A stretch of 60,699 bases of DNA, taken from positions 1-60,699 of the forward strand of contig DASWJH010000070.1 of the NCBI GenBank assembly GCA_036397255.1. Direction: 5' to 3'. Positions 2,974-38,929 of this stretch are shown in pieces. Within the stretch, counting starts at the first letter, position 1, and each line of letters starts with the position of its first letter. Both the position numbers and the translations under genes were made by a program. Source of the DNA: Nitrospiria bacterium (lineage in GTDB: Bacteria > Nitrospirota > Nitrospiria > DASWJH01). Under the pieces are notes generated by a model. That model did no database searches, was not told where the DNA came from, and saw only the letters and a program-made list of their open reading frames with translations.

Positions 2974-4347
2974 ATGCCTTTTCTAAAATTGTTTAATTTA
3001 GCCAATCTCACCGGGCCTCTTCGGATTGCATTAGCAAAAAAACTTTTTTTAGGGTTTGTGGCAATGGTGGCTTTGACCCTTCTGGTCGGCGGATATGCCT
3101 TGGTGAAACTCAATACGCTGAGGGGAATCAGTGAAGGAATGGTCAAACAGGATTTTGTCTTTTCAAAACTCATAAATCAAATGGAAGAAAACCTTCTTGT
3201 TCAAAATTTGTATGAAAAACGCTATTCGGTGCTTAAAGATCCCGCCGTTAAAACCCTTTTTGATGATCGCGGAAAAGAGTTTAAACAATTATGGGCGGAG
3301 TACCGATCCCATATTTCTCCAGAAGAATCGGGATTACAAAAAATTATGACGTTACACCAAAATTACGAATCCTATGTCAAAAATAAAATAGATTTACTGG
3401 ATCAAGGGGAAGAACAAAAGGCAGAAACCCTATCAAAGGACTTCATCCGGGTGACCTTTGAAGAGTTAATGGAAAAAATTAAAAAAGTGAACAAGAAAAT
3501 CAATAAAGAACAAAACGAAAAAATTTTAAAAACACATCAAATTGGAGAAGAAGCTTTTTACGTTACTGTTTTCCTTTGCCTGGTGAGTGGGATTTTCGGG
3601 TTTGGGTTTTCCACTTTTTTAATTTATAATTTATCCTCTTCGATTCGGAAACTTAAGGAAGCCACCCGATTTATTGGAGAAGGGAAGTTTGATCGGGTAA
3701 CTTCAATCCCACAAATAAAAGATGAGGTGGGGGATCTTGCTGAGTCCTTTCAGTGGATGAGCAATCGCCTCCGAACCCTGGAGGAATTGAATCTGGACGC
3801 CAATCCTTTAACCCGTTTGCCGGGAAATTTGGCCATCGAAAAAGAAATTTTGACCCGCCTTCATTCCGATTCGAAGTTTGCCTTTTGTCTTGTTGATTTG
3901 GACAATTTTAAAGCTTTTAGTGATCGATATGGATATGCCCGGGGAAGTGAATTGCTAAAAGGGATGGGAAGCATTTTGGTGGATACCGTTAAACGGTTGG
4001 GGGCTCCCAATGATTTTATCGGTCATATCGGGGGAGATGATTTTGTTTTGGTCATTAGTATGGCCAGTATTTCTCCTCTGTGTGAAGGCATTATTCAACA
4101 ATTCGATGAACAAATTACCCGTTATTATGATCCTGAGGATGTAAAAAGGGGGTTCATTATTTCCAAGGATCGAAAAGACAAGGAGCAGGCCTTTCCTATC
4201 ATGACCCTTTCCATCGCAGTGGTCACAAATGATAAAAGGCCTTTAAGCAGCCCTGCACATATCGCTGAAATAGCGGCGCAGCTCAAACAGTACGCGAAAA
4301 CCTTTTCCAAAAGTCTCTATGTGGTGGATCAACGGAGGTCCCTATGA
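2974..4347 (+). CDS. Membrane sensor with HAMP and GGDEF-type domain (GGDDF variant)
   Basis: A 457-residue inner-membrane protein. Hydrophobic segments at about residues 24-46 and 194-217 bracket a charged, helical periplasmic sensor region of the four-helix-bundle type. A HAMP-like linker (SSSIRKLKEATRFIGEGKFD) follows. The C-terminal half is a GGDEF-fold domain with NPLTRLPGN, FCLVDLDNFKAFSDRYG and IGGDDF near residue 352. The canonical signature is GG(D/E)EF; D replaces E here, so cyclase activity is uncertain and the domain may bind rather than make nucleotide. Its last 4 bp overlap the next lipoprotein gene, so the pair is coupled. Confidence 0.75.
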   Translation: MPFLKLFNLANLTGPLRIALAKKLFLGFVAMVALTLLVGGYALVKLNTLRGISEGMVKQDFVFSKLINQMEENLLVQNLYEKRYSVLKDPAVKTLFDDRGKEFKQLWAEYRSHISPEESGLQKIMTLHQNYESYVKNKIDLLDQGEEQKAETLSKDFIRVTFEELMEKIKKVNKKINKEQNEKILKTHQIGEEAFYVTVFLCLVSGIFGFGFSTFLIYNLSSSIRKLKEATRFIGEGKFDRVTSIPQIKDEVGDLAESFQWMSNRLRTLEELNLDANPLTRLPGNLAIEKEILTRLHSDSKFAFCLVDLDNFKAFSDRYGYARGSELLKGMGSILVDTVKRLGAPNDFIGHIGGDDFVLVISMASISPLCEGIIQQFDEQITRYYDPEDVKRGFIISKDRKDKEQAFPIMTLSIAVVTNDKRPLSSPAHIAEIAAQLKQYAKTFSKSLYVVDQRRSL

Positions 4348-19644: not shown

Positions 19645-20523
19645 GTGTTTAAAAAAATATTAATCAATCGACGATTAATAAACCTTTATGGGTTAGTGTT
19701 GTTTATAGTGAGTCTCATTCTCCCGTTATATGGAATGGCCACAACACCCCCTCCAGGAATGGTATATGTCCCTCCGGGGTCATTTATAATGGGAAGCACC
19801 GAAAAGGATGGAATCATTGGCGTTTCTGTGGGGGTGGATGAGGTTCCCCAATTCAAAGTTCATTTGCCAGGTTTTTTTATCGATCAGTATGAGGTCACAA
19901 CCACAAAATACAAAGAATTTTTGGATGATACAGGAAGGGAACCTCCTGGAGACAAACATCATCCCGAAGTTTATCCATGGAAACGTGATGGGGGAGTTCC
20001 CCCCGAGCTTGCGGACCACCCGGTTATTTATGTTTCCTGGTTTGATGCGGACGCATATTGTCGGTGGGAAGGGAAACGGCTTCCCACAGAACAAGAATGG
20101 GAAAAAGCGGCGCGAGGGACGGATGGGCGAATATGGCCTTGGGGAAACACGTTTGATCCTGCGAAGGCAAATGTCAGGGAATATTGGTTTCAGGTATATG
20201 ATCGTGAAAAAGACCCGGGGACAGTTACTAAAAGAGACTATTCAGGCACCACACCCGTGGGAAGTTTTCCAGAAGGGGTTAGCCCCTTTGGGGTATACGA
20301 TATGACCGGAAATGTGGCGGAATGGACGTCTTCTTGGTACCAGGCCTATCCAGGGAGTACTTTAAAAAGGAAGGCCTTTGGAGAGGTGGTTCGGGTTTTT
20401 AGGGGAGGTTCTAATGTTCTTGAGGGAAACCTCTACGGGCGCGCAGCCCACAGAACCACTTCAACCATTCCGGAAAAGAAGCATCGCTCTTTAGGTTTTC
20501 GTTGCGCCAAGGATGATGAATAA
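19645..20523 (+). CDS. SUMF1-fold (FGE-like) exported protein 1
   Basis: A 292-residue protein with GTG start, AAAGGG upstream and an N-terminal signal segment (to about residue 32). The formylglycine-generating-enzyme fold is shown by PPGSFIMGSTEKDG, DQYEVTTTKYKEFL, HPVIYVSWFDADAYCRWEGKR, LPTEQEWEKAARGTDGRIWPWGN, FGVYDMTGNVAEWTSSWYQAYPG and a terminal LGFRCAKD. The segment that holds the catalytic cysteine in true FGE (before RYR...AARSxxTP) reads NLYGRAAHRTTSTIP here, so sulfatase activation is unlikely. The C-type-lectin-like fold may instead bind a protein, sugar or metal. First of three tandem paralogues. Confidence 0.85.
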   Translation: MFKKILINRRLINLYGLVLFIVSLILPLYGMATTPPPGMVYVPPGSFIMGSTEKDGIIGVSVGVDEVPQFKVHLPGFFIDQYEVTTTKYKEFLDDTGREPPGDKHHPEVYPWKRDGGVPPELADHPVIYVSWFDADAYCRWEGKRLPTEQEWEKAARGTDGRIWPWGNTFDPAKANVREYWFQVYDREKDPGTVTKRDYSGTTPVGSFPEGVSPFGVYDMTGNVAEWTSSWYQAYPGSTLKRKAFGEVVRVFRGGSNVLEGNLYGRAAHRTTSTIPEKKHRSLGFRCAKDDE

Positions 20524-21346
20524 AAAAAAGAGGATAGAAAAGGGCTTTGTTGTCGCTGTTTTAATTTTTCTATCTATGGGATGTGTGAACAAGGGAAATC
20601 GTTTGGGTGATAAGGAAAAATTTTTGAACGAAAAAAATAGGCCTAAAGGAATGGTTTTAATTCCGGCCGGGAAGTTTCTCATGGGAAGTACAAAACAGGA
20701 TGGGGGAATAGGGATTGATATTGGTGTGGATGAACTCCCACAACACACGGTTGATTTACCTGCTTTTTACATGGATCAATTTGAAGTGACCAACAGCGAA
20801 TATGGAATGTTTAGAGAGGCTACGGGACATCCGGCTTCGGCCCTGCTGACGCAGGAAGATTTCACCAGTGTCTATCCTAAACCAGAGGATAATCACCCGG
20901 TTTTGGATGTCAATTGGAATGATGCCGACGCTTTTTGCCGTTGGGCGGGAAAAAGGCTTCCCACGGAGGCGGAATGGGAGAAAGCGGCACGAGGAACGGA
21001 TGGGAATTTTTGGCCCTGGGGAAATGAAGCGGATCCAGGAAAAACAAATACCCGGGAGTCAAGACATTTCTGGACCCACCCTGTTGGGGGAAAAAAGGGG
21101 GATGTGAGCCCCTATGGGGTTTATGACATGGCGGGAAATGCGATGGAGTGGACCTCCTCCTGGTATGATGCCTATCCGGGAAGCCCGTTAAAAAGAAAGG
21201 CATTCGGAAAAAGTTTCAAGGTTTTGAGAGGTGCATCATGGGGAACTGAATTCTTTCCCTTTTCACGGGTAACCCACCGGTTTAGCGTTTTGCCCGGGCT
21301 TGCCCAACCTGATTTTGGAATTCGATGTGCGAAAAATGTGGAATAA
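20513..21346 (+). CDS. SUMF1-fold (FGE-like) lipoprotein 2
   Basis: A 277-residue lipoprotein (lipobox SMGC near residue 24) overlapping the previous gene by 11 bp. It repeats the same elements: GMVLIPAGKFLMGSTKQDGG, GVDELPQHTVDLPAFYMDQFEVTN, HPVLDVNWNDADAFCRWAGKRLP, WEKAARGTDGNFWPWGN, YGVYDMAGNAMEWTSSWYDAYPG and FGIRCAKN. The region equivalent to the FGE active site (FSRVTHRFSVLPG) has no cysteine. The insert SPLKRKAFGKSFKVLRGAS is shared almost unchanged with the neighbouring paralogues, pointing to tandem duplication rather than independent recruitment. Confidence 0.85.
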   Translation: MMNKKKRIEKGFVVAVLIFLSMGCVNKGNRLGDKEKFLNEKNRPKGMVLIPAGKFLMGSTKQDGGIGIDIGVDELPQHTVDLPAFYMDQFEVTNSEYGMFREATGHPASALLTQEDFTSVYPKPEDNHPVLDVNWNDADAFCRWAGKRLPTEAEWEKAARGTDGNFWPWGNEADPGKTNTRESRHFWTHPVGGKKGDVSPYGVYDMAGNAMEWTSSWYDAYPGSPLKRKAFGKSFKVLRGASWGTEFFPFSRVTHRFSVLPGLAQPDFGIRCAKNVE

Positions 21347-22178
21347 TAAAGCGAATATAATATTTCAACTCTTTTCTCAGTTTTTTATTTTTATGATAAT
21401 GGGAGGGTGCCTTTTATCTAAGGTAGACCCTATACCTTTCCCTCAGACTACCCAGGGAATGGTTTTAATTCCAGAGGGTTATTTTTGGATGGGAAGTACC
21501 GAAAAGGATGGTCTCATCGGAATTGACGTTGGAGTGGATGAGATTCCCAAGCAAAAAATATTTTTACCCTCCTTTTATCTTGATCAATTTGAGGTAACCA
21601 ATCGGGCCTATAAGATTTTTGTGGACGTTACCCAGAGAGGAAATAAAATCCCCGGTTATTGGGTAAAGGGATCTTACCCACTCGGAAGCGGGGATGAACC
21701 TGTATCCGATACGGATTGGTTTGATGCCTATGCCTATTGTGACTGGACGGGGAAGCGACTCCCCTCAGAGAGAGAGTGGGAAAAGGCTGCGAGGGGAAAT
21801 GATGGGCGAATATGGCCTTGGGGCAATCAAATCCAAGATGGAGCAGCCAATACTGCAAATGAAGGATGGGAATGGAAACGGCCCATTGGGTCCTATGATT
21901 TGGATACGAGCCCATTTGGGGTTTATGATATGGCTGGCAATGTGAGGGAATGGACCTCCTCCTGGTATGAGGCTTATCCCGGCAGCCGCCTAAAACGTAA
22001 TGCGTTTGGAAAAAGCTTTCGTGTTATCAAGGGAGGCTCCTATGCTGACAGTGGCGCCATGACCCGTTTGGCACATCGAATTGCGGTTCGGGCGACCCAT
22101 GATCCCGATGGGGACCGAACCTGGCATACCGACTATGCAAATGGTTTCCGTTGTGCCAAGGATATTGAGGAGAAATAG
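21336..22178 (+). CDS. SUMF1-fold (FGE-like) lipoprotein 3
   Basis: About 280 residues from ATG 21336, which overlaps the previous stop by 11 bp; an upstream TTG (21300) would overlap by 47 bp and add residues ahead of the signal peptide. Lipobox MGGC. Domain signatures: GMVLIPEGYFWMGSTEKDG, DQFEVTNRAYKIF, CDWTGKRLPSEREWEKAARG, DGRIWPWGN, FGVYDMAGNVREWTSSWYEAYPG and NGFRCAKDIEEK. The position of the FGE cysteine reads MTRLAHRIAVRATHDP, again without cysteine. All three proteins share VGVDE(V/L/I)P, an element I do not know from classical FGE. Probably co-expressed with the flanking lipoprotein genes. Confidence 0.85.
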   Translation: MWNNKANIIFQLFSQFFIFMIMGGCLLSKVDPIPFPQTTQGMVLIPEGYFWMGSTEKDGLIGIDVGVDEIPKQKIFLPSFYLDQFEVTNRAYKIFVDVTQRGNKIPGYWVKGSYPLGSGDEPVSDTDWFDAYAYCDWTGKRLPSEREWEKAARGNDGRIWPWGNQIQDGAANTANEGWEWKRPIGSYDLDTSPFGVYDMAGNVREWTSSWYEAYPGSRLKRNAFGKSFRVIKGGSYADSGAMTRLAHRIAVRATHDPDGDRTWHTDYANGFRCAKDIEEK

Positions 22179-24405: not shown

Positions 24406-24465
24406 ATCAGAAAAAGATTTTTTATATACGTTATTCAGGGTAATACGGAATTTGAGGAAACTCCG

Positions 24466-25059
24466 GTGCGGAAAATAAAATTAAACCAAGAGGTGTTTTT
24501 TTATTTTTTAATGTTTGGCCTTCTTCTGGAAGCGGGAACCGGGTTGCTGGTTGGGGTATTTAGTTTTTGGGAGATTACCCTTTTTTCTTTAATTCTAATT
24601 CACCTCCTGGTTGGTTTTTTATTATTGGGCCCTTTTATTTTATTTGGAATTTTTCATGGTTGGAAAGAAAGTTTTTTCCCGGGCTCGCTTGTCAGTGGGC
24701 GGACTCAAAAGGAGGAAGGAATTTCCGGGTCTAGAGTGAAAAATCAGAACCCAAGTATGAAACGATCCAAAAGTTCCCCGTTTCTTTGGGGAATTATTCT
24801 TTTTCTGTTTTTATTGGTTTCTTTTAGTCTGGGAGGGTATTTTACCATTGCTGGTGTTCCTCGCAGAAACGAATGGCTCCTACACGTTCATATTGCTGCC
24901 GGATGGATTGGCCTAATTCTTTTGCTGTGGCACTTAAAAAGCATTTCGTGGAAGAGATTTGCTAAAGGGTTTGCCTTGACTGTTCCTTTGATCTTTTTTT
25001 TTAATTTTTTTGGAAAACACAAACCTGTACAGCAACGTATTGGATCAAAATGGAATTAA
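24466..25059 (+). CDS. Five-helix membrane protein, predicted b-type cytochrome module
   Basis: A 197-residue integral membrane protein from GTG 24466 (GAGG upstream). Five hydrophobic segments lie at about residues 9-30, 36-62, 104-126, 134-157 and 166-184. Helix 2 has histidines at both ends (IHLLVGF...GIFHGW) and helix 4 has HVHIAAGWIGLILLLWH, the spacing expected for two b-hemes between helices 2 and 4. Positive charge (MRKIK, KRSKSS, KRFAKG) puts the N-terminus inside and the C-terminus in the periplasm. It overlaps the next cytochrome gene by 50 bp at a T9-AA-T7 tract, so a frameshifted fusion is possible. A quinol-to-cytochrome step is inferred. Confidence 0.65.
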   Translation: MRKIKLNQEVFFYFLMFGLLLEAGTGLLVGVFSFWEITLFSLILIHLLVGFLLLGPFILFGIFHGWKESFFPGSLVSGRTQKEEGISGSRVKNQNPSMKRSKSSPFLWGIILFLFLLVSFSLGGYFTIAGVPRRNEWLLHVHIAAGWIGLILLLWHLKSISWKRFAKGFALTVPLIFFFNFFGKHKPVQQRIGSKWN

Positions 25060-27214
25060 ATCTTCCCCTTCCACCTCACCCGTGGCCGATTTCCCAGTGA
25101 AAGCCCAACCAGAAGGAGAGGGGAGGGACAAAGATGACCTCTTTAAACCGTCCTTGGGGAGAACGAATGACGGAAAAATTTTATCAGCAAAGGTTTTTCT
25201 CCGTTCTGAGTCTTGCGGAAATTCGGGTTGTCATTCCGAGATTTTGAATCAGTGGCGTTCCTCTGCGCATCATCGTTCATCCTTTAACAATCCCTTTTAT
25301 AAAAAGACGGTTGAAATTTTGGAAAAGCAGAAAGGCTCCAATCCTGTGAAATTTTGTGGTGGCTGCCATGATCCTGTTCTATTGTTTTCCGGGAAAATGG
25401 AGGGCAAGATAAATTCCAGCACCCCTGAAGCTCAAGCGGGAATTGTCTGCCTTTCCTGCCACGCCATACAAAAAATATCCGGGGTAAGGGGAAACGCCGA
25501 ATATGTTATTCGATTGCCTCAAAAATATCCTTTTGAAGATCAAGAAGGGCCTGTACCCCAGTTTTTAAACCGCCTTTTAATTCGAGTGAAACCCGGCCCC
25601 CATCGAAAAGAATTTTTGAAGCCTTTTCACTCAAAATCCCAGTTTTGTGGTTTATGCCATAAGGTGAGTATTGATGTTCCGGTAAACGGGTATCGTTGGA
25701 AAAGGGGGCAAAATGAATATGACGCATGGCAGATGAGTGGAATTTCGGGGCATGTTGCCGCCCCCTTGGGAAATCAAAATAAAAAAGGGAAATCATGCAG
25801 CGATTGTCATATGCCGGAAGTTGAATCGCAAGATATGGGAAATAAAAACGGTAAAATTCATCATCACGCCTTTGCTACGGCAAATACCGCTTTGCCCCAT
25901 GTGTTGGAGGATTTGCCTCAATTAAACCGGGTTAGGGATTTTCTAAGGAATAACCAGATTAGCATAGACCTGATTGCGGTACGTAAAAAAAGTGAAGTTT
26001 CTGGACTCCAAGAAATTTCTGACTCGACATCTAATCAGGATAAGGTTTGGGTTTTTCCGGTTGACCCCTATCCATTGGGGTTCCGGTGTGGAGAAGAGAT
26101 AATATTTGAGGTTCTGGTGAAAAATGAAGGTGTGGGCCATTCATTTCCCGGCGGAACCATCGACGCACAGGAGGTGTGGATAGAGTTTCAGGTAAATGAT
26201 GAACGGGGAAATCCAATTTTTCATAGCGGTTTCCTAAAGGAAGACGGAAAAGTTGATCCTAGGGCCCATTTTTACGGGGCATTGCTTTTGAACAAAAAAG
26301 GGGAACCCATTCTCCAAAGGAATATTCAGGACTGGATTGCAACTGCATATAAACGCGTAATCCCTCCTGGGGGTTCGGATGTTGTTTTTTATAAGGCTCT
26401 CATTCCAGAAGGTTGCAAAAGTGGGATTTCCATCAAGGCCAGTTTACAGTATCGAAAGTTTCGGCCCTCATTTACTCAATTTGCGTTAAAGGAAGAAAAA
26501 GGGAAAAATACCCAAATTGATCCTTTTCCAGTGGTCACAATGGGAGAGTTTCATATTCAAATAGCCAATGATTTGAACTTGGAAAAAACCCGTGATTCCG
26601 GAAATGACTTCCAAAAAACCTCGGACAGGTTAAATGACTATGGATTGGCACTTTTTCTCCAGGGAGATTTTCGCAGGGCCGAGGAAGTTTTTAGGACCTT
26701 ATTGATGGGAGATGAAATGTTTTTTGAAACCCGGGCCAGACTCGTTCGGGTTTTATTAGCCGATGGGGCCATAGAGGATGCCCGGGAGGAAGCGGAACGT
26801 TTGGTTGATTTGGATCCGTCCTCTTCTAAAGGACTTTTTCTAAAAGCACTGGTTGAGAAAGAGTATGGAAACTATGAAGAGGCCTTAGCCCTTTTAAACC
26901 CTCTATCCCTCCAATTTCCCAATGACCGGGAGGTATTAAAACAAATGGGGAGAATCCAATTTTTAATCGGAAGTTTGGAAATGGCAAAATCCTCTTTTGG
27001 AAAGGCACTGGAGATTGATCCGGAGGATCCCATGGTTCATTTGAATTTAAGTTTAATTTTTGAAGCGCTGGGGGATGAAAAACAAGCCAGGGTCAAAAGG
27101 AATCTTTATTTAAAATACAAGGACGCTGAGGAAGAGGAGACATTGGCAGGCGTATTTAGACGAAGCGATTTATGGATCAATCGTGAGGCTCAAAAAATTC
27201 ATGTTCATGATTAA
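25010..27214 (+). CDS. Multiheme cytochrome c with TPR domain (CX4CH + 4 CXXCH), no own signal peptide
   Basis: 734 residues. Heme sites: CGNSGCH (CX4CH, about residue 69), CGGCH, CLSCH, CGLCH and CSDCH, in a cytochrome c554-like order (SESCGNSGCHSEILNQWRSSAH, with the histidine pattern of that family). A beta-sandwich region (about 340-520) follows, then TPR repeats (about 550-700), including ALFLQGDFRRAEEVFRTLL and MAKSSFGKALEIDPEDP. Heme attachment requires export, yet the frame opens at TTG 25010 without signal peptide. It is open upstream to 24992 in the +1 frame relative to the membrane protein, so a frameshift in the T-tract would tether it in the periplasm. Confidence 0.8.
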   Translation: MENTNLYSNVLDQNGIKSSPSTSPVADFPVKAQPEGEGRDKDDLFKPSLGRTNDGKILSAKVFLRSESCGNSGCHSEILNQWRSSAHHRSSFNNPFYKKTVEILEKQKGSNPVKFCGGCHDPVLLFSGKMEGKINSSTPEAQAGIVCLSCHAIQKISGVRGNAEYVIRLPQKYPFEDQEGPVPQFLNRLLIRVKPGPHRKEFLKPFHSKSQFCGLCHKVSIDVPVNGYRWKRGQNEYDAWQMSGISGHVAAPLGNQNKKGKSCSDCHMPEVESQDMGNKNGKIHHHAFATANTALPHVLEDLPQLNRVRDFLRNNQISIDLIAVRKKSEVSGLQEISDSTSNQDKVWVFPVDPYPLGFRCGEEIIFEVLVKNEGVGHSFPGGTIDAQEVWIEFQVNDERGNPIFHSGFLKEDGKVDPRAHFYGALLLNKKGEPILQRNIQDWIATAYKRVIPPGGSDVVFYKALIPEGCKSGISIKASLQYRKFRPSFTQFALKEEKGKNTQIDPFPVVTMGEFHIQIANDLNLEKTRDSGNDFQKTSDRLNDYGLALFLQGDFRRAEEVFRTLLMGDEMFFETRARLVRVLLADGAIEDAREEAERLVDLDPSSSKGLFLKALVEKEYGNYEEALALLNPLSLQFPNDREVLKQMGRIQFLIGSLEMAKSSFGKALEIDPEDPMVHLNLSLIFEALGDEKQARVKRNLYLKYKDAEEEETLAGVFRRSDLWINREAQKIHVHD

Positions 27215-27232: not shown

Positions 27233-28981
27233 ATGGTGCACTGGTTTTTTTTGGGAGGAATTTTTTTAATTTTTTTGGGGACAAACCAGGAATGTTTTGG
27301 GGGCCAATTGGATTTAAAGAAAAAATCGGTTAAAAATAATATGAATAATTTAAAATCTGAAATAATGTTTACAGATGTAACCCAAAAAGCGGGAATTAAG
27401 TTTATCCATGAAAACGGGGGAACGGGTCAGTACTTTTATCCTGAAACCTTTGGTTCCGGTGTTTGTGTCATAGATTATAATGCCGATTCGGCCCCCGATC
27501 TGGTTTTGATCAATGGCAATCGCGATTTTTCATCCTTAAAAAAACAGAAGGAATTGAAGCCCATTCCAAATAGTATCGTTCTATACCATAACAATGGAAA
27601 CGGAACCTTTTCTGACAGGACCCAACAAGCACAAATAATTTCTGAACTATACGGAATGGGGTGTTCTGTGGGAGATTACGATAATAACGGTTTTCAGGAT
27701 TTATTGGTTACCGGATATGAGGGTTTTACGCTTTACCATAATCAGGGAAAGGGTTCCTTTGAGGATGTGACCCAAAAGGCTTTTCAGGGAAAAAGCCAAA
27801 AAGGTTGGGCTACCGGTAGCCTCTGGTTTGATTATGATCGGGACGGGGATTTGGACCTCTTCGTCGGCCATTATGTTCAATGGTCCCCAAAAACCGATCT
27901 TTGGTGTACCATCGATGGAAAGGAGAAATCTTTCTGCGGGCCTGAACCCTATTCGGGAGAGACCAACCGGCTCTATCAAAACCGAGGTGATGGAACCTTT
28001 CAGGATGTGACCAAGCCATCAGGTCTATTGAACACAAAGGGAAAAACCTTGGGGGTCTCCATGCTGGATATGGATGAAGACGGGTGGATGGATTTGGTGA
28101 TCGCCAATGATATGGTTCCAAATTTCCTTTATCGAAATAAGCAGGATGGAACATTCGTTGAAGCCGCTTTGAAAAAAGGCCTTTTCGTCAACGAGAGGGG
28201 TTTGGCAAAAGCGGGTATGGGAATTGATGTTGCGGACTTTGAGAACGATGGTGGGCCGGGAATCTTAATTGGAAACTTTGCCCACGAACAACTCTCTCTC
28301 TTTGTCAGGCGGGAAAAGGGAGTTTTTGTCGATGAAAGTCGAAACCGAGGCCTTGCCATTCCGAGTCATTTCTTTTTAACCTTTGGTCTTTTCTTTTTTG
28401 ATTTTAATTTGGATGGGTTATTGGATATTTTTACCGCCAATGGACATGTGGACCGCCATGCTTCCCTAATATCCAAAGGATCAACCTATCAGCAAAGGCC
28501 TCTTCTCTTTCGCCAGAACAAAGAGAAAAAATTTGATGAGGTGGGTTTAGATCATGGGAAGGCATTGACCCGTCCTGTTTTGGGTCGAGGGGCCGTTTAT
28601 TTGGATTATGATGAAGATGGAGATTTGGATATTTTTTTAACGGAGAATGGGGGAAGGCCCATTTTGTACCGAAATGAAGGAGGAAATCAAAACCATTGGT
28701 TAAGGATTGGGTTGGTTGGAACGGAAAGTAACCGGGATGGTATTGGGGCCTTGGTAAAAGTAAAAGTGGGTGATCAGGTTCTTCAAGCCATGGTCAAAAC
28801 GGGATCCAGCTATCTGTCTCAAAGTGAACTCCCTTTAACATTCGGGCTAGGAGAATTAAAACAGGCGGAATGGATAGAGGTCCAATGGCCTTTGGGAAAA
28901 GTTGAGAAGCACGACAATATTAAAAGTGATCAATTTATTGTTTTTAAAGAAGGGAAGAACATAATAAAACAGATCCCATGA
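27233..28981 (+). CDS. CRTAC1-family FG-GAP/ASPIC-UnbV exported protein
   Basis: A 582-residue protein with a signal peptide (to about residue 24). The chain is a seven-bladed FG-GAP/VCBS propeller whose blades end in calcium-binding loops: DYDNNGFQD, DYDRDGDLD, DMDEDGWMD, DFNLDGLLD and DYDEDGDLD are intact, while DYNADSAPD and DFENDGGPG are weaker. The C-terminal about 90 residues (NHWLRIGLVGTESNRDGIGA...TGSSYLSQSELPLTFGLG) form the ASPIC/UnbV domain. Such proteins commonly lie next to TPR or multiheme proteins in environmental bacteria; their function is not established. A TPR-bearing cytochrome gene precedes it by 18 bp. Confidence 0.85.
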   Translation: MVHWFFLGGIFLIFLGTNQECFGGQLDLKKKSVKNNMNNLKSEIMFTDVTQKAGIKFIHENGGTGQYFYPETFGSGVCVIDYNADSAPDLVLINGNRDFSSLKKQKELKPIPNSIVLYHNNGNGTFSDRTQQAQIISELYGMGCSVGDYDNNGFQDLLVTGYEGFTLYHNQGKGSFEDVTQKAFQGKSQKGWATGSLWFDYDRDGDLDLFVGHYVQWSPKTDLWCTIDGKEKSFCGPEPYSGETNRLYQNRGDGTFQDVTKPSGLLNTKGKTLGVSMLDMDEDGWMDLVIANDMVPNFLYRNKQDGTFVEAALKKGLFVNERGLAKAGMGIDVADFENDGGPGILIGNFAHEQLSLFVRREKGVFVDESRNRGLAIPSHFFLTFGLFFFDFNLDGLLDIFTANGHVDRHASLISKGSTYQQRPLLFRQNKEKKFDEVGLDHGKALTRPVLGRGAVYLDYDEDGDLDIFLTENGGRPILYRNEGGNQNHWLRIGLVGTESNRDGIGALVKVKVGDQVLQAMVKTGSSYLSQSELPLTFGLGELKQAEWIEVQWPLGKVEKHDNIKSDQFIVFKEGKNIIKQIP

Positions 28982-29251
28982 GAGTGTTTTAACTATAGAA
29001 TAAACTTACTGATTTGAGGTATTCGTTTTCATAATCTAGGTTAAGTAAAGAACAATAAAAAAATAAAGAATCAAACAAAAGAAATTGAAGTGTAACTCAT
29101 TGTTTTAAAAAGTTGTTTTTGTGTGTAAGGTTTTTTGGGGGGTATGGGAATTGCACTTCAAAGGATAATGGGCTCTTTTAAACCAGGGAATATAAATCCA
29201 GTTCTGTCAATAAAAGTCATGTTTTATACTTTCTCAAAAATTACTGAACCT

Positions 29252-32200
29252 ATGAAAAATCCAACATTTAATCGGGTTTTATTCTTTTGTCTTTATGGTA
29301 TTTTTTTCCTTTTAACCACCCCTATTATCGCTCAATCCGTTTCCACACTTACAACCATTACTCCCAATTCGGGATTGTGGGATAAAGAGATTACCGTTAC
29401 CATTCAAGGGAGCAATTTTGTGAGCGGTTCCATTGTGACCTTTACATGTAATTCGTGTACAAAGCCTGGTATCTCGGTTCTTTCTACAAAATATGTCAAC
29501 GATATGATCAACCCTCCTAAGATTGAAGCCATTATTTACGTTTCGCCAGAAGCGGAAATTGCCACATGGCAGGTAGATGTTTTCGATCCTGATAACACCC
29601 AATCGACCAATTCGCTTACTTTTAATGTGAATGAAAGAAATTTGGATGTCAATACGGCAAGTGGAGATATAATTCTTGATGTTGGAAGTCCACGAAGGTG
29701 GAAAAATATTTTGGTTACCAATGGTAAAACGTTAACCATTAATGCCATTACTATTGAAATTGAAACACTGACCATTTCAAATGGAACCTTAAAACTTGTT
29801 AGGGGAGCACGCTTATTACCTTCCCCCACCATTAACGCCACCAATGCTACCATTACCGGGGATAGTTCATATACCTTGGACGGTTCCAACATTACCTTGA
29901 CGAGTTCCAATATTTTTGGAGAACGGGTGACGGTTTTAGGGACGAATCTAACGGTTGGATCTGCTTCTAGAATTAACCTCAATGGAGGGGGGCAAAAAGG
30001 GGGAAGAGGATGTAAAGACATTGATTATGTCGGGTCTGCCGGCCAAGGAAAGGGGGAGGATGGAAATGGGGCAGCATGTCTTAACCTTCGGCCCGGTGGG
30101 GGTGGAGGTTATGGGGGAACGGGGGGAAATGGATTCTCGACCCTTGGCCCAACGGATCCCGTTTCTTCGGGAGGTATAGCCTATGGAAATCCAATGGCAC
30201 CCACAGACCTGGGGAGTGGTGGGGGCAAGAGCGTGGTTTCTACTTTGGCGGGAAATATAGCGGTTGCGGGTGGAAATGGCGGAGGGGCTCTTAAAATTGG
30301 GGTTTCTGGAACTCTTACCAATAACGGAATTATTTCCGCTAATGGGTCTGTCGGAGGAACCGGTAGTAGAGGTGCCGGTGGAGGAAGCGGGGGAAGTGTT
30401 TTTGTCAGCGCAGGGACTTTATCAGGGACAGGAACCTTTAGGGCAATTGGTGGAAATGGCGGGGCAAATGGGGGCGGTGGCGGCGGGGGTGGAAGAATTG
30501 TCGCCTATTATAATTCTACAACCTTTCCAGTTGGTAATTTAATTTGTACAAGAGGAACCGGAGGCAGCGGTGGCGGGGGAAATGGCATTAACGGAACCTG
30601 CGGGGGAGGGTCCGGGGGATTGCAAGTCATTGGATCTGCCCCAAGTGGTATTTCTGTTTCTCCATCTAGTTTGGGACAAGGAGCAGCGAGTAAAACCCTG
30701 GTTATAACGGGAAACAACATTAAAAACGGCGCCACTGTCGGTTTTTCCGGGTCGGGCATTACCATAATTTCCACAACCTTTATTTCTTCTAACAGCAGCC
30801 TCTCCGTAACGATTTCGGTTTCTTCATTCGCCAGTAATGGGAACAGAATATTGACTGTGACCAATCCCGATGGGACCAGCAGTACCACAACTTTTTCTGT
30901 GGCTTCAGGTCCTACCGTTTCCACAATCTCCCCATCCCGGGTGGATCAGGGTAAAAGCAATGTCTCCGTGGTTATCAGTGGGACAAATTTCGATTCTCCC
31001 AATGGATGTTCCCTTTCTTTTAGCGGTTCTGGAATTGTAATCAATAATGTTACCTGTGACAGTTCAACCCAAATTTCAGGAAACATTAGCATTGCCCCAA
31101 CTGCCACCTCGGGGCAGCGGGATGTGATTATCAGTAATTCCTCGAACAGTGGTCGGGGGGTGGGGGGTAACAGACTTCAAGTTGAGCTTTCCCCAACCGT
31201 AAATAATGTAAGCCCTGGAAATTTGGGCCAAGGGGCTTTGAGCCAAACCCTTACTCTCACGGGCTTTAGTTTTTCTAGCGGGGCAACCGTTTCATTTAGT
31301 GGAGGAGGAGATATTACATCAGGTGGGGTAACCGTAAACAGCAGTACATCTATTACCGTTCCAGTGACGATTTCAACAACTGCTCTGTTGGGAACCAGGG
31401 ATGTAACGGTCACCAATTTGGATGGGAGGGCAGGAACCTGTTCCGGTTGTTTGACACTAACACAAGGACCTTCTATTAGTTCCATATCCCCGGCCAGCAG
31501 AGGACGAGGGGCCACCGGTCAAGTCCTTTCCATTAATGGCAGCAATTTTGTTTCAGGGGCTACGGTTTCTTTTAGTGGAGCTGGAATTACCATTAACAAT
31601 ACCAGTTTTATCAATTCCACCCAGCAATCGGTTACGGTGAATATAGCCAGTAATGCAACCACTGGAACCAGGGATGTCAGTGTGACCAATCCTGATAAGG
31701 GACGGTTTGGAGGAACCGGAATATTTACAATCAATCCGACCCCTAGTATCAACACCATTACGCCAAAGCGAGGAGATGAAGGCGCTACCTCCCTCCAATT
31801 GACGATTTCTGGAACAGATTTTCAAAACGGGGCGACCGTTACTCTGGGGGGATCGGGACTTACAGTGGGGTCAACTTCTTTTGTGAATACCGGCACATTA
31901 CAAACCACTGTTGATATTCTCCCAACTGCTCCAATTGGAGCAAGGAGCGTCACTGTCACAAACCCTGATGGTGGCTCCCAAACCCTTAGCAGTCTGTTTA
32001 CAGTTGATGCAGTTCCGGTTATTTCGAGTGTGAGTCCTTCTAACGGGGTTCAAGGGGATATAGATAAACAGGTGACCATCACGGGGACCGGTTTTGTGAA
32101 TGGTCTTAATGTTTCAGTGGGTTCGGGGATCACGGCTTCATCCATCAATGTGGTCAGCCTTACCCAGATTGTGCTTTTAGTAAATATTTCTTTCCCCACC

Positions 32201-35200
32201 ACTCCTGGGACCTATAATTTTACGGTAACCAACCCCGATGGGCGTTCTTCCACCGCATCTTCACCTTTTACTGTCACCGCTGCTTCGCCTTTAACAGTTA
32301 ACGGAAGTCAAACCTTAACATCCAGCGATATCAACAGTTATATTTCTGTTACCGTAAACAATGGAGGAGTTCTAACCTTACAGGGGGCGGTCGGTTTATC
32401 CGTACAGGGAAATATGACTGTGGCGGCTGGAGGAACCGTTACAGCCAATGGGAAAGGGTGTCCGAGTGGTCAGGGGGTAGGTGCTAATGGTTGCAGCGGA
32501 AATTTAGGTATCCCTGGAAGACCGAGTGGGAACAGTGGTGGAGGCCACGGTGGAAATGGTGGAAATGGATTCTTTGGTGTTGGAGGATCAAGTTATGGTC
32601 TGGCAACCAAACCTACTTTTCTTGGTTCAGGGGGAATTGCCGGAGACAATCCTTCCAATCCAAATGGAGGACCGGGTGGAGGTGCCATAAAATTGGTTGT
32701 TGGGGGAACCTTGCAAGTCGATGGAATCATTTCCGCAAATGGAAATCCGGGAGGGAATTTAAATGGGGCAAACGGTGGGGCAGGAGGCGGGGCGGGGGGA
32801 AGCATTTATTTGACTGCAAATACCTTATCAGGAACTGGGAGCGTTAGTGCCAATGGGGGCGCTGGAGGGACCAATGATTTAAATCGCGGTGGAGGTGGAG
32901 GTGCTGGGGGAAGAATAGCCATTTACTATGTTCCCAGTGGATTAAACACTTTTTCTGGTGTGGCCGTTCCTTCCACAAGTTGTGGGGCTAGTCTATCCAA
33001 AGGGGGGACTGCTCCCCCCGGGGGAACAGCGGGGTCAGATGGAACCTGTATCATCACCACAATAAGCAATCCCAATGTTTCGGTGGCCACCCCAAACACG
33101 TTGATTCAAGGAAGAACCAATGTGTCCCTCACGCTTACCGATACTGATTCAAACCCAGCAACAAATTTTGTTAATGGTGTGACGGTATCTTTTAGTGGAA
33201 CTGGAATTACGGTGGTCAGCACCAGTTTCGTGGATGCGCAAACTCTTTCGCTAACAGTTAATATTGCCAACACAGCTTCTTCTGGAAGTAGAAATGTGAC
33301 CGTTACAAACCCCGATGGAACATCCTTTACCGCAAACGGACTTATTTCCATTAGTGCCATCCCAACCCTAACCTCTGTTTCCCCGGATAATTTAAACCGT
33401 GGTTTGACCAGTCAAACCCTGACCCTTAATGGAAGCAATTTCCAAACCGGCGCCACCCTTTCAATGGATGGGGGAGGTTTTTCAGCGAGCTCCTGTTCGG
33501 GAAGTGGAAGCCAATTGGTTTGTACGGTCAGTTCTTCAATCACCAATACCGCCGGGCCAAGGACTCTAACGATTACAAACCCCGATACCGGAAGTGGAAG
33601 TGCCACTGGATTATTCCGAATCAATTCAAATCCCCAGCTTACCAGTGTTTCTCCCTCAAGTGTTCCCCCCGGAACCCTTAACCAAGTTTTAAGGCTAATC
33701 GGAAGCGGGTTTATTAGTAATGCGACGGTAGACATTTCTTGTGATACCAACCTGGTCCCAAATTGCAGCCATGGAATTGAAGTATCCGGGAATCCTACCT
33801 TTGTTGGTTTTAATGAATTACAGGTAACGGTTAATGTTCTTTCCTCGGCAACAGTGGGAAAAAGAACCCTTGTGATTAATAACCAAGATGGAGGGAGTAA
33901 TACTTTTTCCAATAATTTTGAAGTGGGGGCCATTCCTTCTACAACGGTGACGGGTTTGGTTGCTTATGGAGAATCTTCCACTTCAACACCCCGGTTTAGA
34001 ACATGGAACGGGTCAGGCTGGTCGCAGGAAAGTAGTGCCGTCAATGGGGTGAACCCCAACCACTGGAATGTTATGGTTTCTAACCCGGTTAGAAATGAAA
34101 AGATCCTTGCTTCTTTGGATAGTAAAGACCGTTTAATGGTACAGGTATGGAATGGTGTCCAATGGGGAAATGCACTGGAAATTGCACCCCTTTCCGGTTC
34201 AGCGAGCGTAGAAGGAACCGCCTTTGATGTTGCCTTTGAGGCTGGGGGACGGGGTTTGGTGGTCTATGGCCTGAGCGGATCGTCGGTTCTTCGATATAGA
34301 ATTTGGGATGGAACCAACTGGGGGTCTGAACAACAAGTTTTCAACACTGCAACGACTGGGGTCCCTGTATGGGTCAAACTTGCAGCCAACCCTTCAGGGC
34401 AGGAAATCCTCTTGGTGTTTAAAGACAGCCAAAAAGATATTAATTCCTTGGTATGGAATGGAACCCAGTTTGGAAATGAGAAGAGGTTAACCATTGAAGG
34501 AACCTCTCCAGCAACCCCAGGATTTGATGTTGCTTATGAAAGGCAATCCGGCAAGGCAATGGTGGTTTGGAGTAAAAACTCAAGTTCAACACCGCGATAT
34601 CGAATTTGGGATGGAACAAGTTGGGGAAACGAAGGCCAGGCCATTCAATTGGGTTCGTCCTCGAGTGCCAATCTACGCCATCTTCGTTTGGTCAGTGATC
34701 CCCAATCCGACCAGATGGCGTTAGGGATATTGGATGAAAACAGGGGGCTCCAGGTTCAGTTTTGGGATGGATCGAATTGGTTAAATACTGGGACAAGAAC
34801 ACCTTTTACGCTGACAGAAAACCCTGGTTCTACATTAACCGTTTCTTCCATTTCACCGAATAGTATAGGGCAAGGAGTAGGAAGTTTAAATCTAACTATT
34901 ACCGGAGCAAATTTTAAAGAAGGAAGTCTCACACAACCCGTGTTGGTAAGTTTCAGTGGAACCGGGATAACGGTAGATTCTGCGAATGTAACGGTTGATA
35001 GCCCCACACAATTGACTGTTCCCATAACCGTTTCTAACTTAGCCCCTTTAGGATCCCGGAATGTAACGGTTACCAACACCGACCCGGAGGGGCAAAGTGT
35101 AACCATGCCTGGTTTATTTGAAGTCACTACAGGGACTTCGGCGTTAATAAAAACTTTCACACAAAATGAAGGTTTTGGTAGAAACTTTGATTTGGCCTGG

Positions 35201-38200
35201 GAGTCCAAAAAACAACAGATGATTGCGGCCTATGGGAATGGAGGGATTTTGGGCGGGGTTTATAGAAAGTGGACATTGGGAAGTGGCTGGTCTTCAGCCT
35301 CATTTCTTCCATCAGGCCCAAGAATTCCAGATGTGATTCAGTTACGTTCTAATCCAACCAATAATGAACAATTACTAACACTGATCGATAGAAAATTTAA
35401 TGAAAACGATTCTAATGAAAGCTCTCCCCAGGGGATTACGTTTCATCATTGGACCGGGTTTGTGTGGGATAAAAGCACGATTTTAGAAGCAAATCCTCCG
35501 AGTCCGAGAACCGTTTATGATTCCGATAGCGGGAAGAACGTTATGGTTCAACCGGAATCGTTTATGGTTTCATTTGCTCAGCACCAAAACATAACCGGTT
35601 TAACTGTAAATGGGATAAATCCCTCAATCTTAGGACTTGGAACCTCAACCTCTGTAACCCTTTCGGGAACCGGTCTGGTTTCGGGGTCTACCGTCACTTT
35701 TAGTGGGACAGGGGTTACCACGAATGGTGGGGTGAACGCCAGTAACGGGGGAACACAATTGGCTTTTACGGTAAATGTTTCAGGTGGGGCAGCTACGGGA
35801 GCAAGGGATATCACTGTAACAAATTCAGATGGACAATCCGTGATGGGGGTTGGAATTCTTACCATTGGTTCGGGAACAACTTCTTCTCCAAGGATTACAG
35901 GGCTTAGTCCTGACTCTGCCCCCCAAGGCGTATCCTCCGCTTTGATTACAATCAATGGGTCTGGTTTTCAAACAGGCGCAACGGTTGGTTTTAGCGGTAC
36001 CGGGGTTACGGTAAATTCCGTTAATTTTGTAAATTCCTCCCGTTTGGATGTGACCGTGGATATCAATGGTTTGGCTACCCCGGGAGCAAGGGATGTTACT
36101 GTTACAAATCCAGATAGCGGAACGGTTACAGTTTCTTCTCTCTTCAATATAGCCTTGGTCTCTAGCTCCAATCTGCTTGTTTCGTCTAATATGACCATTT
36201 CAACGGATGCCACCTATCCTGATATTACCGTCAGAGATGGTGCCACTCTGACCCTTCAAGGGGACATTACTTTAACTGCCACTGGAACCATATGTGTGGC
36301 CGGAACATCCTCAACTTGTGCGTCGGGAAGCTCGGGGGCTGGAGGGATTCTTTTAATTCCTTCTTCGGGATTGGTAACCATTAAAGCGTCCGATATGAAC
36401 ATCGAATCAGGGGGACAAATTTCTTCGGACTGGAGGGGTTGTGCGGCAGCGGTTGGGTGTGGTTCAGGTGGAATTGGTGTTGGGGGAAGCAGCACTGGTT
36501 CAGGTGCAGGTGGAGCTTCTCACGGGGGAAGAGGTGGAAACAGCGGAAATTCTTCTGGAGGAAAGGGTTCTTTAAGCACTTATGGTTCAAGTACTTTTCC
36601 AATTACAAGAGGGAGTGGGGGTGGAAATGGAGATGCAACAGGTGTTGGGGGAGCTGGGGGGGGAGCTTATAAGATAGAGGTAATAAATACCCTTACCTTA
36701 AATGGATTTTTAACGGCTCAAGGGCAAAATGGAATTAATAGTGCGGTTTCCGGGGGTGGCGGTGGAAGTGGAGGGAGCATCCAGGTCATTACCAATATAC
36801 TTGGGGGTTCTGGAAATTTTTCTACAAAAGGAGGAAATGGGGGAAATCATTCCTCTGGAAATAATCCTGGTGGTGGTGGCGGTGGTGGTCGAATCGCCGT
36901 CTATGCGATAACCTCTACTTTGAGCACATCCAATATGAATTGTTCAGGTGGTACAGGAGGGGCAGGATTAACCACCAATGGTCAAAACGGGGGGCCGGGG
37001 GGTTGTAATCTTTATATTCAAGCCACTCCCACCGTTTCCAGTATTTCTCCCTCAAGTTTATTTAAAGGGGTGAATGATCAAAATATTACTATTTTGGGAT
37101 CCAATTTTGTAGATGGGGCGACGGTTTCAATGGGCACCGGAGTGGTGGTGAATTTGGTGAAGTTTATCAATGCGGGTGAATTGGTGGTGAATGTGGATGT
37201 AAACCCCTCTGCTGTGCAAGGTCTAAGAGATGTTATTGTTACCAATCCTTTAATCGGACAGTCCCCTTCAGGAAATAATTTGCTAACCATCCTGGATCCA
37301 AGCGATACGACTGCCCCAAATGCGGTTTCGGATCTTACAGAAAAACCTAATTCTACCACAACCAGTTCCGTGACATTCAAGTGGACCTCTCCAGCGGATA
37401 ATGGGGGGGGGAATGTGGCATCCTATGATATTCGATATGCAACCTTCCAAATTGCTGCCGCGAGTTTTTCAAGTGCCACCTCTGTTTTAAATTCCCCAAC
37501 ACCTTCTTCTGCAGGGAGCCCAGAGGAATTTACGATAGGGGGGCTCGTGGGGGGACGAACATATTTCTTTGCCTTAAAATCAAAGGATGCCAATGGAAAT
37601 ACCTCTGCAATCTCCAATGTGGTTTCTGTGGTGGTTGGGGCTGATACGACTCCTCCAGCAAAAATCACTGATTTAAGGTTTGGGGAAACGGTAAACTCCA
37701 ATTCTGTTTCTTTAATATGGACTTCAACGGGTGATGATGGAAGCATAGGACAGGCCAACCGTTATATTGTGAAATTTTCAATCACGAATATTCAAAATCA
37801 AACGGACTTTAATAATGCCACTACTTTTAAACAATTCCTTATTCCCAAAACCGCAGGGTCTACTGAGACCTTGGCTATTGGCGGTCTATCCCCCAATACG
37901 CGCTATTATTTTGGGGTGGAAGCGGTTGATGAAGCTGGGAATAAAGGAGGGTTTTCCAATATTGCGACGGCGGCCACTTTGTCAAATACCCCCTCTAATG
38001 ACACTGTTGCTCCGTCGGCCATTACCGATCTTGTTGTCGTATCCGCTGGGGTAACAGATACCACGTTGATGGTTCGGTGGACGGCTTCCGGTAATGACGG
38101 AAAATTAGGAACCGCTACCGGTTACGATTTGCGGTACTCTCATTTGGAAATCGTGGGTTCTGGAGGGGATGGGGTGAGAACCATTAATTTTGCTAATGCA

Positions 38201-38929
38201 ACTCCTGTTTCAAATCTCCCCTCTCCTCATGAAGCTGGGAAGATTGAAACGTTTGTTATTACCGGTTTGACCCGGAATACACCCTACACCATAGCCATAA
38301 AAGTTTTTGATGAGGGATATAATCAAAGTAATTCGTCTCCTCAAGGAATTTCTGGGATTTCAAATATTGTTTCTTCCCGCACAGCCATGCGGAACGGGTT
38401 TAACCTTGTGTCCGTTCCCTTGACTACCATACCCAATGATGTGGATTCCGTTTTTGGGGATGATGTGGGGATTCCTGTAAATATATCCAGTTGGTTTTCC
38501 ACGGGTCTAGACTCTTCGAAAGGATCTTACCAAACTCCAACGACGGTGCAGGAGGGGATGGGATATATCCTTTTTTCCCAGGGAAACCTTTCCGTAGTCG
38601 ATGCCCCAAGTGGATCACAAGAAATTACAACAGGCCCCTATTCTATTTCAATACAGAGGGGTTGGAATATCCTTGGGAACCCTTTTAACAAAAGAGTGGG
38701 GTTAGGAGAGACCAGTATTAGGAGGATGGAATCGGGAGAAACCCTTGGTTTTCCTGAGGCGGTGACCCGTGGCTGGGTAGGGAGTTCTCTATACCTTTTT
38801 AATGGAATAACATTCGATGCGGTTAAATTTGATGATCCCACACCCGCTGCATTGGAACCTTGGCAAGGGTATTGGTTTTTGGTGTTGAGGGATGATTTTT
38901 CCTATGAAATGGTGATTAACAAACCTTGA
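29252..38929 (+). CDS. Giant IPT/TIG, glycine-rich and FN3 surface protein
   Basis: About 3,225 residues. ATG 29252 gives a signal peptide (LFFCLYGIFFLLTTPIIAQS); an upstream TTG (29135) gives no sensible leader. By nucleotide position: IPT/TIG domain (29340-29640), glycine-rich module A (29640-30640), six IPT (30640-32280), glycine-rich B (32280-33070), three IPT (33070-33930), a repeat region with WNG/WDG-x-x-W motifs (33930-34830), IPT (34840-35130), a related repeat region (35150-35590), two IPT (35600-36150), glycine-rich C (36150-37020), IPT (37025-37290), three FN3 (37300-38380) and a C-terminal GFNLVSVPL/GWNILGNPF domain. No transmembrane anchor or LPXTG is seen. Likely a secreted adhesin or extracellular matrix scaffold. 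Confidence 0.82.
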   Translation: MKNPTFNRVLFFCLYGIFFLLTTPIIAQSVSTLTTITPNSGLWDKEITVTIQGSNFVSGSIVTFTCNSCTKPGISVLSTKYVNDMINPPKIEAIIYVSPEAEIATWQVDVFDPDNTQSTNSLTFNVNERNLDVNTASGDIILDVGSPRRWKNILVTNGKTLTINAITIEIETLTISNGTLKLVRGARLLPSPTINATNATITGDSSYTLDGSNITLTSSNIFGERVTVLGTNLTVGSASRINLNGGGQKGGRGCKDIDYVGSAGQGKGEDGNGAACLNLRPGGGGGYGGTGGNGFSTLGPTDPVSSGGIAYGNPMAPTDLGSGGGKSVVSTLAGNIAVAGGNGGGALKIGVSGTLTNNGIISANGSVGGTGSRGAGGGSGGSVFVSAGTLSGTGTFRAIGGNGGANGGGGGGGGRIVAYYNSTTFPVGNLICTRGTGGSGGGGNGINGTCGGGSGGLQVIGSAPSGISVSPSSLGQGAASKTLVITGNNIKNGATVGFSGSGITIISTTFISSNSSLSVTISVSSFASNGNRILTVTNPDGTSSTTTFSVASGPTVSTISPSRVDQGKSNVSVVISGTNFDSPNGCSLSFSGSGIVINNVTCDSSTQISGNISIAPTATSGQRDVIISNSSNSGRGVGGNRLQVELSPTVNNVSPGNLGQGALSQTLTLTGFSFSSGATVSFSGGGDITSGGVTVNSSTSITVPVTISTTALLGTRDVTVTNLDGRAGTCSGCLTLTQGPSISSISPASRGRGATGQVLSINGSNFVSGATVSFSGAGITINNTSFINSTQQSVTVNIASNATTGTRDVSVTNPDKGRFGGTGIFTINPTPSINTITPKRGDEGATSLQLTISGTDFQNGATVTLGGSGLTVGSTSFVNTGTLQTTVDILPTAPIGARSVTVTNPDGGSQTLSSLFTVDAVPVISSVSPSNGVQGDIDKQVTITGTGFVNGLNVSVGSGITASSINVVSLTQIVLLVNISFPTTPGTYNFTVTNPDGRSSTASSPFTVTAASPLTVNGSQTLTSSDINSYISVTVNNGGVLTLQGAVGLSVQGNMTVAAGGTVTANGKGCPSGQGVGANGCSGNLGIPGRPSGNSGGGHGGNGGNGFFGVGGSSYGLATKPTFLGSGGIAGDNPSNPNGGPGGGAIKLVVGGTLQVDGIISANGNPGGNLNGANGGAGGGAGGSIYLTANTLSGTGSVSANGGAGGTNDLNRGGGGGAGGRIAIYYVPSGLNTFSGVAVPSTSCGASLSKGGTAPPGGTAGSDGTCIITTISNPNVSVATPNTLIQGRTNVSLTLTDTDSNPATNFVNGVTVSFSGTGITVVSTSFVDAQTLSLTVNIANTASSGSRNVTVTNPDGTSFTANGLISISAIPTLTSVSPDNLNRGLTSQTLTLNGSNFQTGATLSMDGGGFSASSCSGSGSQLVCTVSSSITNTAGPRTLTITNPDTGSGSATGLFRINSNPQLTSVSPSSVPPGTLNQVLRLIGSGFISNATVDISCDTNLVPNCSHGIEVSGNPTFVGFNELQVTVNVLSSATVGKRTLVINNQDGGSNTFSNNFEVGAIPSTTVTGLVAYGESSTSTPRFRTWNGSGWSQESSAVNGVNPNHWNVMVSNPVRNEKILASLDSKDRLMVQVWNGVQWGNALEIAPLSGSASVEGTAFDVAFEAGGRGLVVYGLSGSSVLRYRIWDGTNWGSEQQVFNTATTGVPVWVKLAANPSGQEILLVFKDSQKDINSLVWNGTQFGNEKRLTIEGTSPATPGFDVAYERQSGKAMVVWSKNSSSTPRYRIWDGTSWGNEGQAIQLGSSSSANLRHLRLVSDPQSDQMALGILDENRGLQVQFWDGSNWLNTGTRTPFTLTENPGSTLTVSSISPNSIGQGVGSLNLTITGANFKEGSLTQPVLVSFSGTGITVDSANVTVDSPTQLTVPITVSNLAPLGSRNVTVTNTDPEGQSVTMPGLFEVTTGTSALIKTFTQNEGFGRNFDLAWESKKQQMIAAYGNGGILGGVYRKWTLGSGWSSASFLPSGPRIPDVIQLRSNPTNNEQLLTLIDRKFNENDSNESSPQGITFHHWTGFVWDKSTILEANPPSPRTVYDSDSGKNVMVQPESFMVSFAQHQNITGLTVNGINPSILGLGTSTSVTLSGTGLVSGSTVTFSGTGVTTNGGVNASNGGTQLAFTVNVSGGAATGARDITVTNSDGQSVMGVGILTIGSGTTSSPRITGLSPDSAPQGVSSALITINGSGFQTGATVGFSGTGVTVNSVNFVNSSRLDVTVDINGLATPGARDVTVTNPDSGTVTVSSLFNIALVSSSNLLVSSNMTISTDATYPDITVRDGATLTLQGDITLTATGTICVAGTSSTCASGSSGAGGILLIPSSGLVTIKASDMNIESGGQISSDWRGCAAAVGCGSGGIGVGGSSTGSGAGGASHGGRGGNSGNSSGGKGSLSTYGSSTFPITRGSGGGNGDATGVGGAGGGAYKIEVINTLTLNGFLTAQGQNGINSAVSGGGGGSGGSIQVITNILGGSGNFSTKGGNGGNHSSGNNPGGGGGGGRIAVYAITSTLSTSNMNCSGGTGGAGLTTNGQNGGPGGCNLYIQATPTVSSISPSSLFKGVNDQNITILGSNFVDGATVSMGTGVVVNLVKFINAGELVVNVDVNPSAVQGLRDVIVTNPLIGQSPSGNNLLTILDPSDTTAPNAVSDLTEKPNSTTTSSVTFKWTSPADNGGGNVASYDIRYATFQIAAASFSSATSVLNSPTPSSAGSPEEFTIGGLVGGRTYFFALKSKDANGNTSAISNVVSVVVGADTTPPAKITDLRFGETVNSNSVSLIWTSTGDDGSIGQANRYIVKFSITNIQNQTDFNNATTFKQFLIPKTAGSTETLAIGGLSPNTRYYFGVEAVDEAGNKGGFSNIATAATLSNTPSNDTVAPSAITDLVVVSAGVTDTTLMVRWTASGNDGKLGTATGYDLRYSHLEIVGSGGDGVRTINFANATPVSNLPSPHEAGKIETFVITGLTRNTPYTIAIKVFDEGYNQSNSSPQGISGISNIVSSRTAMRNGFNLVSVPLTTIPNDVDSVFGDDVGIPVNISSWFSTGLDSSKGSYQTPTTVQEGMGYILFSQGNLSVVDAPSGSQEITTGPYSISIQRGWNILGNPFNKRVGLGETSIRRMESGETLGFPEAVTRGWVGSSLYLFNGITFDAVKFDDPTPAALEPWQGYWFLVLRDDFSYEMVINKP

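Follow-up and report, generated by a model that had tools for sequence, protein, structure and literature searches.

Two overlapping reading frames meet at a T-rich tract

We analysed a window of 60,699 nucleotides, the whole of the stretch covered by positions 1 to 60,699 of contig DASWJH010000070.1 from a Nitrospiria bacterium (assembly GCA_036397255.1); the features of the locus described here all lie on its forward strand. Two open frames occupy the locus: ORF1 (24466-25059), which corresponds to an N-terminal membrane domain and begins with a GTG preceded by a Shine-Dalgarno-like GAGGA (24454-24458), and ORF2 (open from 24992 to 27214), which would encode a pentaheme cytochrome c located in the periplasm, with TPR repeats at its C-terminus. 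Counted from a TTG at 25010 (25010-27214), ORF2 overlaps ORF1 by 50 bp. The frames cross in a tract made up of nine T residues (T9, 24994-25002), two A residues (25003-25004) and seven further T residues (T7, 25005-25011). The positions of the T runs and the extent of the overlap, as given in the original prediction, proved exact when the sequence was rechecked.

Passing from ORF1 to ORF2 requires either a +1 change, equivalent to loss of one T (T8), or two added bases (T11). The T8 sequence joins the frames into a stop-free reading of 915 aa, as had been predicted for a +1 change, and T11 likewise joins them, whereas a single added base (T10) leads to an immediate TAA. T9, at which T8 or T11 fits the frame of the protein family described below, is the likeliest position of the break and T7 the alternative one; beyond the tract, the ORF1 codons no longer follow the family frame.

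The locus continues at 27233-28981 with a gene for a CRTAC1-like FG-GAP/UnbV_ASPIC protein, the conserved 3' partner of the family. Farther downstream lies a repeat-rich ORF of 3264 aa (29135-38929), and upstream are three tandem, similar ORFs with an FGE-sulfatase-like look (19645-22178, of which 21300-22178 was covered by the Pfam scan).

ORF2 resembles a pentaheme cytochrome and ORF1 is a putative membrane cytochrome b

ORF2 contains one CX4CH heme motif (CGNSGCH, 25214-25234) followed by four CXXCH motifs (CGGCH, 25355-25369; CLSCH, 25448-25462; CGLCH, 25646-25660; and CSDCH, 25796-25810). It matches the Pfam family Cytochrome_C554, and its pentaheme domain is collinear with those of its homologues. 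The TPR repeats, also recognized by Pfam, occupy 26624-27091. Attachment of c-type hemes takes place outside the cytoplasm, and the cytochrome frame had been predicted to lack a signal peptide; indeed, its N-terminus is not hydrophobic. No start codon 5' of heme 1 in ORF2 has a convincing ribosome site, and the GTG of ORF1 has its GAGGA. Codon usage is weak over the first 159 codons of ORF2, an observation that counts against the explanation favoured below.

All five hydrophobic segments of the locus are in ORF1, and ORF2 has none. Comparison of ORF1 with Pfam and NCBIfam gave zero matches, including none to a curated cytochrome b family, and pairwise BLAST detected no convincing similarity to the N-termini of fused homologues. 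A profile built from five fused N-terminal domains revealed the similarity, aligning with ORF1 over 121 columns (hhalign probability 94.3, E 9.5e-8); by this profile comparison, ORF1 is homologous to the N-terminal domains of the fused proteins. Two histidines are invariant or nearly so in this multi-helix domain and both are present in ORF1: His142 (codon 24889-24891) occurs in 57 of 57 aligned rows and His46 (24601-24603) in 56 of 57, the remaining row being a gap. Both are putative b-heme ligands. Two others tend to co-vary, namely His64 (24655-24657; 37 of 57 rows) and His156 (24931-24933; 32 of 57 rows). They are jointly present or jointly absent in 48 of 57 rows (both in 30, neither in 18, mixed in 9), as raw counts that ignore relatedness. 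Such a pattern would be expected if one bis-histidine heme b were obligatory and a second optional, and from it we infer that ORF1 is probably a b-type cytochrome of five helices carrying one or two b-hemes.

Homologues encode both domains in a single frame

Relatives of the cytochrome half, with 33-37% identity, were found in Nitrospirota, Acidobacteria, Rhodothermus and Neomarinimicrobiota; the two Nitrospirota relatives (L011 and L012) belong to the same phylum as the window and apparently to another class. Five relatives (L011, L012, L023, L024 and L025) have four to five hydrophobic segments upstream of heme 1 in one unbroken frame, and all seven Rhodothermaceae genomes carry two fused copies. 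The second Rhodothermaceae paralogue (L094, L095, L101-L105) is shorter, lacks TPRs and is followed by a CRTAC1-like gene. We considered these second copies as splits because of apparent internal stops, but the stops are terminal ones. Profile searches returned matches in 27 of 395 genomes from one phylum (that of G412) and in 121 of 396 from another (that of G411); in both searches many matches cover the N-terminal domain and others begin past it. Variation within the family includes a Neomarinimicrobiota cytochrome without the membrane domain and Nitrospirota fused copies without TPRs. Of 56 loci (L096-L155, L011, L012 and L023-L025), most of them viewed with about 1.5 kb of flank, 42 have the CRTAC1-like gene adjoining the fused one.

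The homologues thus include the single fused proteins that the original prediction had proposed to look for, in Nitrospirota, Acidobacteria and Rhodothermus relatives alike. The opposite outcome, two proteins each with its own signal, did not appear: no split pair was found among the homologues, and in the part of the match list that was opened the membrane and cytochrome domains were never seen as separate genes. One candidate for a split homologue, L013 (G058), was set aside; its frame begins within the cytochrome domain and the sequence upstream looks unrelated. In L120, another homologue, the stretch that separates helix 5 from heme 1 contains an in-frame TAA, some 33 codons ahead of the heme motif.

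The fused reading of the window matches the family in spacing as well, with 107 residues between His142 and heme 1 compared with 93-126 (median 103) in homologues. As assembled, the frame changes within 24994-25011. By sequence comparison the locus is homologous to the fused family, but it is no intact member as it stands.

A structural model of the fused reading

We modelled the fused reading with AlphaFold using an alignment of 59 sequences, a first model from 8 sequences having been too poor to use. The resulting model (pLDDT 80.2, pTM 0.79) places a helix at residues 172-194, which spans the junction (residues 176-183) at lower confidence (blocks of 62-69). Because this helix crosses the junction, the tract would lie within helix 5. 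The original prediction therefore holds in locating the join at the last membrane helix but not in placing it after that helix. The cytochrome domain, modelled without hemes, adopts a pentaheme fold of the 5ZE8 type (E 2.9e-13; TM-score 0.65 on the target). The model indicates that the fusion is structurally sensible; the fused reading was its input, so production of the fusion is not implied.

Together, the fused homologues, the profile homology of ORF1, the invariant His46 and His142, the linker length and the modelled helix 5 strongly support the reading of ORF1 and ORF2 as one gene with a broken frame.

Relationship to known pentaheme cytochromes

The 5ZE8 structure is cytochrome c552 of Thermochromatium tepidum, which has been grouped with ExtKL and the pentaheme cytochromes of cable bacteria (PMC11976967). 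The window cytochrome resembles this PHC family (ExtKL and Gsu2801 of Geobacter, sPHC and lPHC of cable bacteria, and T. tepidum c552) in its five heme motifs, in a phmmer match (E 1.7e-4) and in the structural match to 5ZE8. It differs in its additional N-terminal five-helix domain, its C-terminal TPRs and the CX4CH form of its first motif. ORF2 matches the ExtKL profile NF040886 weakly, at 16 bits, far short of the cut-off of 250. It also has close counterparts in the fused cytochromes that occur in Nitrospirota, Acidobacteria and relatives of Rhodothermus, which share its domain order, His46 and His142, heme motifs and downstream CRTAC1-like gene; those cytochromes are single ORFs, whereas the window copy is frame-broken at T9.

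What breaks the frame

Homopolymer tracts were surveyed in 765 kb of this genome and, more loosely, in about 1.05 Mb of its 3.35 Mb. The 765 kb contain 78 A or T runs of nine, and no longer run falls inside a gene there; the looser survey found one T10 inside a gene. Since 21 of the runs of nine lie well inside called genes, nothing is unusual about the tract taken alone. What stands out is that it coincides with a frame break separating two halves of a single protein family: among 147 overlapping same-strand pairs of open frames in the 765 kb, a single pair, that of the window, has an A/T run of at least nine in the overlap. With most A9 and T9 runs leaving genes intact, 97.5% completeness and 0.5% contamination, this assembly is not riddled with indels in general, a point against the explanation favoured below.

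A second break of a similar kind is present in the same assembly. In tamB (L079:10133-10141; G000 contig C88), a TamB-like N-terminal half and a PF04357 half (E 1.9e-52) lie in different frames that meet at a run of nine C residues (C9), also in the +1 direction; a search seeded with the tamB piece recovered that piece and no relatives. A gene at L163 (around 3617-3624) apparently shifts frame twice, the second time at G7, and may be a pseudogene or contain sequence errors. General assembly noise was rejected as the sole cause given that the majority of long runs are intact, yet the tamB C9 and L163 candidates exist. Two other candidates were dismissed by eye, one at L161 as an ordinary argD/argF overlap and one at L165 as an ordinary IS630-like transposase. 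The halves of the latter lie in different frames at A8 (L165:14564-14571), and the use of transcriptional slippage is known from IS elements (PMC1088944). Our automatic detection of frame breaks overlooked both the window and the tamB breaks, so its counts are rough.

Conservation of the tract was assessed across 56 loci. A/T runs at the homologue junctions are six or shorter in 54 of 56, the T run is not conserved, and a frame change at the junction is absent from all of the other homologues. One homologue, L139, has a T9 (at 1900) in the helix 5/linker region with its frame intact. Frame transitions that are supported by homology but unclustered are expected to be sequencing errors (Antonov et al. 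2013, PMC3711429).

The lack of conservation at the site, the absence of a frame change there in any other homologue and the tamB C9 break in the same direction together speak for a sequence error or an indel rather than programmed slippage. Of the two causes named in the original prediction, error (or indel) is thus the one to which the evidence points, and programming is unsupported. The best overall explanation, which we hold with good but not full confidence, is that the locus represents one membrane-anchored cytochrome gene whose frame is broken in the T9/T7 tract by a non-programmed event: the assembled tract encoding helix 5 would have either one surplus base or two missing ones. We put a consensus error or a tract-length polymorphism in the assembly at roughly even chances, and consider a recent real indel a possible but rather unlikely cause. 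Even with a real break, RNA polymerase slipping on T9 should still yield some of the fused product.

Use of T9 as a transcriptional slippage site is improbable, although it has several points in its favour. Here RNA polymerase would drop one U or add two, so that some of the mRNA is fused and the rest encodes the membrane domain only. The frame change does coincide with an A/T run of at least nine; in many genomes, selection against slippage begins to show at nine bases (Baranov et al. 2005, PMC1088944), and slippage increases steeply with run length (PMC5574713). Messages with T8 and T11 both encode the fusion, and both halves of the gene are intact except at the break. Slippage on A11 rescues an interrupted tssM in Citrobacter (PMC4256274). 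Like the window locus, tssM encodes an envelope protein and is broken at a long A/T run, beyond which it continues in a different frame; there, however, slippage was measured and found in a second species, whereas the site in the window is unique. Against slippage stand the missing conservation of the site, the lack of a known function for the short form, and the second break at a different homopolymer (tamB C9), which suggests a general cause. A more specific form, in which T9 is a lineage-specific slippage switch setting the ratio of free membrane cytochrome b domain to full b-c conduit, appears highly improbable; were it true, electron export would be adjusted through slippage of the polymerase or through changes in tract length.

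It is very unlikely that the frames are two independent, translationally coupled genes with the cytochrome starting inside the overlap. A TTG is available there, at 25010, and some other gene pairs in the genome overlap with weak starts, but ORF2 would have to deliver a protein with neither signal peptide nor anchor, from no convincing start 5' of heme 1, to the site of c-type heme attachment, and its homologues are fused. A ribosomal frameshift programmed at the T runs is likewise very unlikely: T-rich slippery heptamers are present, but -1 reading meets a TAA immediately, the direction needed is +1 or -2, and the site is not conserved.

A putative quinone-linked electron conduit

If the locus is one gene with a non-programmed break, as we favour, its product would have five membrane helices, probably with one or two b-hemes, through which electrons pass between the quinone pool and the pentaheme cytochrome c domain in the periplasm. 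TPR repeats would follow that domain, and the CRTAC1-like FG-GAP protein would be its partner. A quinone-linked membrane cytochrome b would thereby hand electrons to the pentaheme domain. A quinone-linked electron conduit with an ExtKL-type fold is plausible.

The whole fusion matched no family in Pfam or NCBIfam, we found no curated family name for it, and a limited literature search yielded no published description. There is probably nothing unusual about the frame break as such. The fused membrane/pentaheme/TPR cytochrome, for its part, is widespread in Acidobacteria and occurs also in Rhodothermus relatives and Nitrospirota, and automatic annotation would miss the window copy or mislabel it as two genes.
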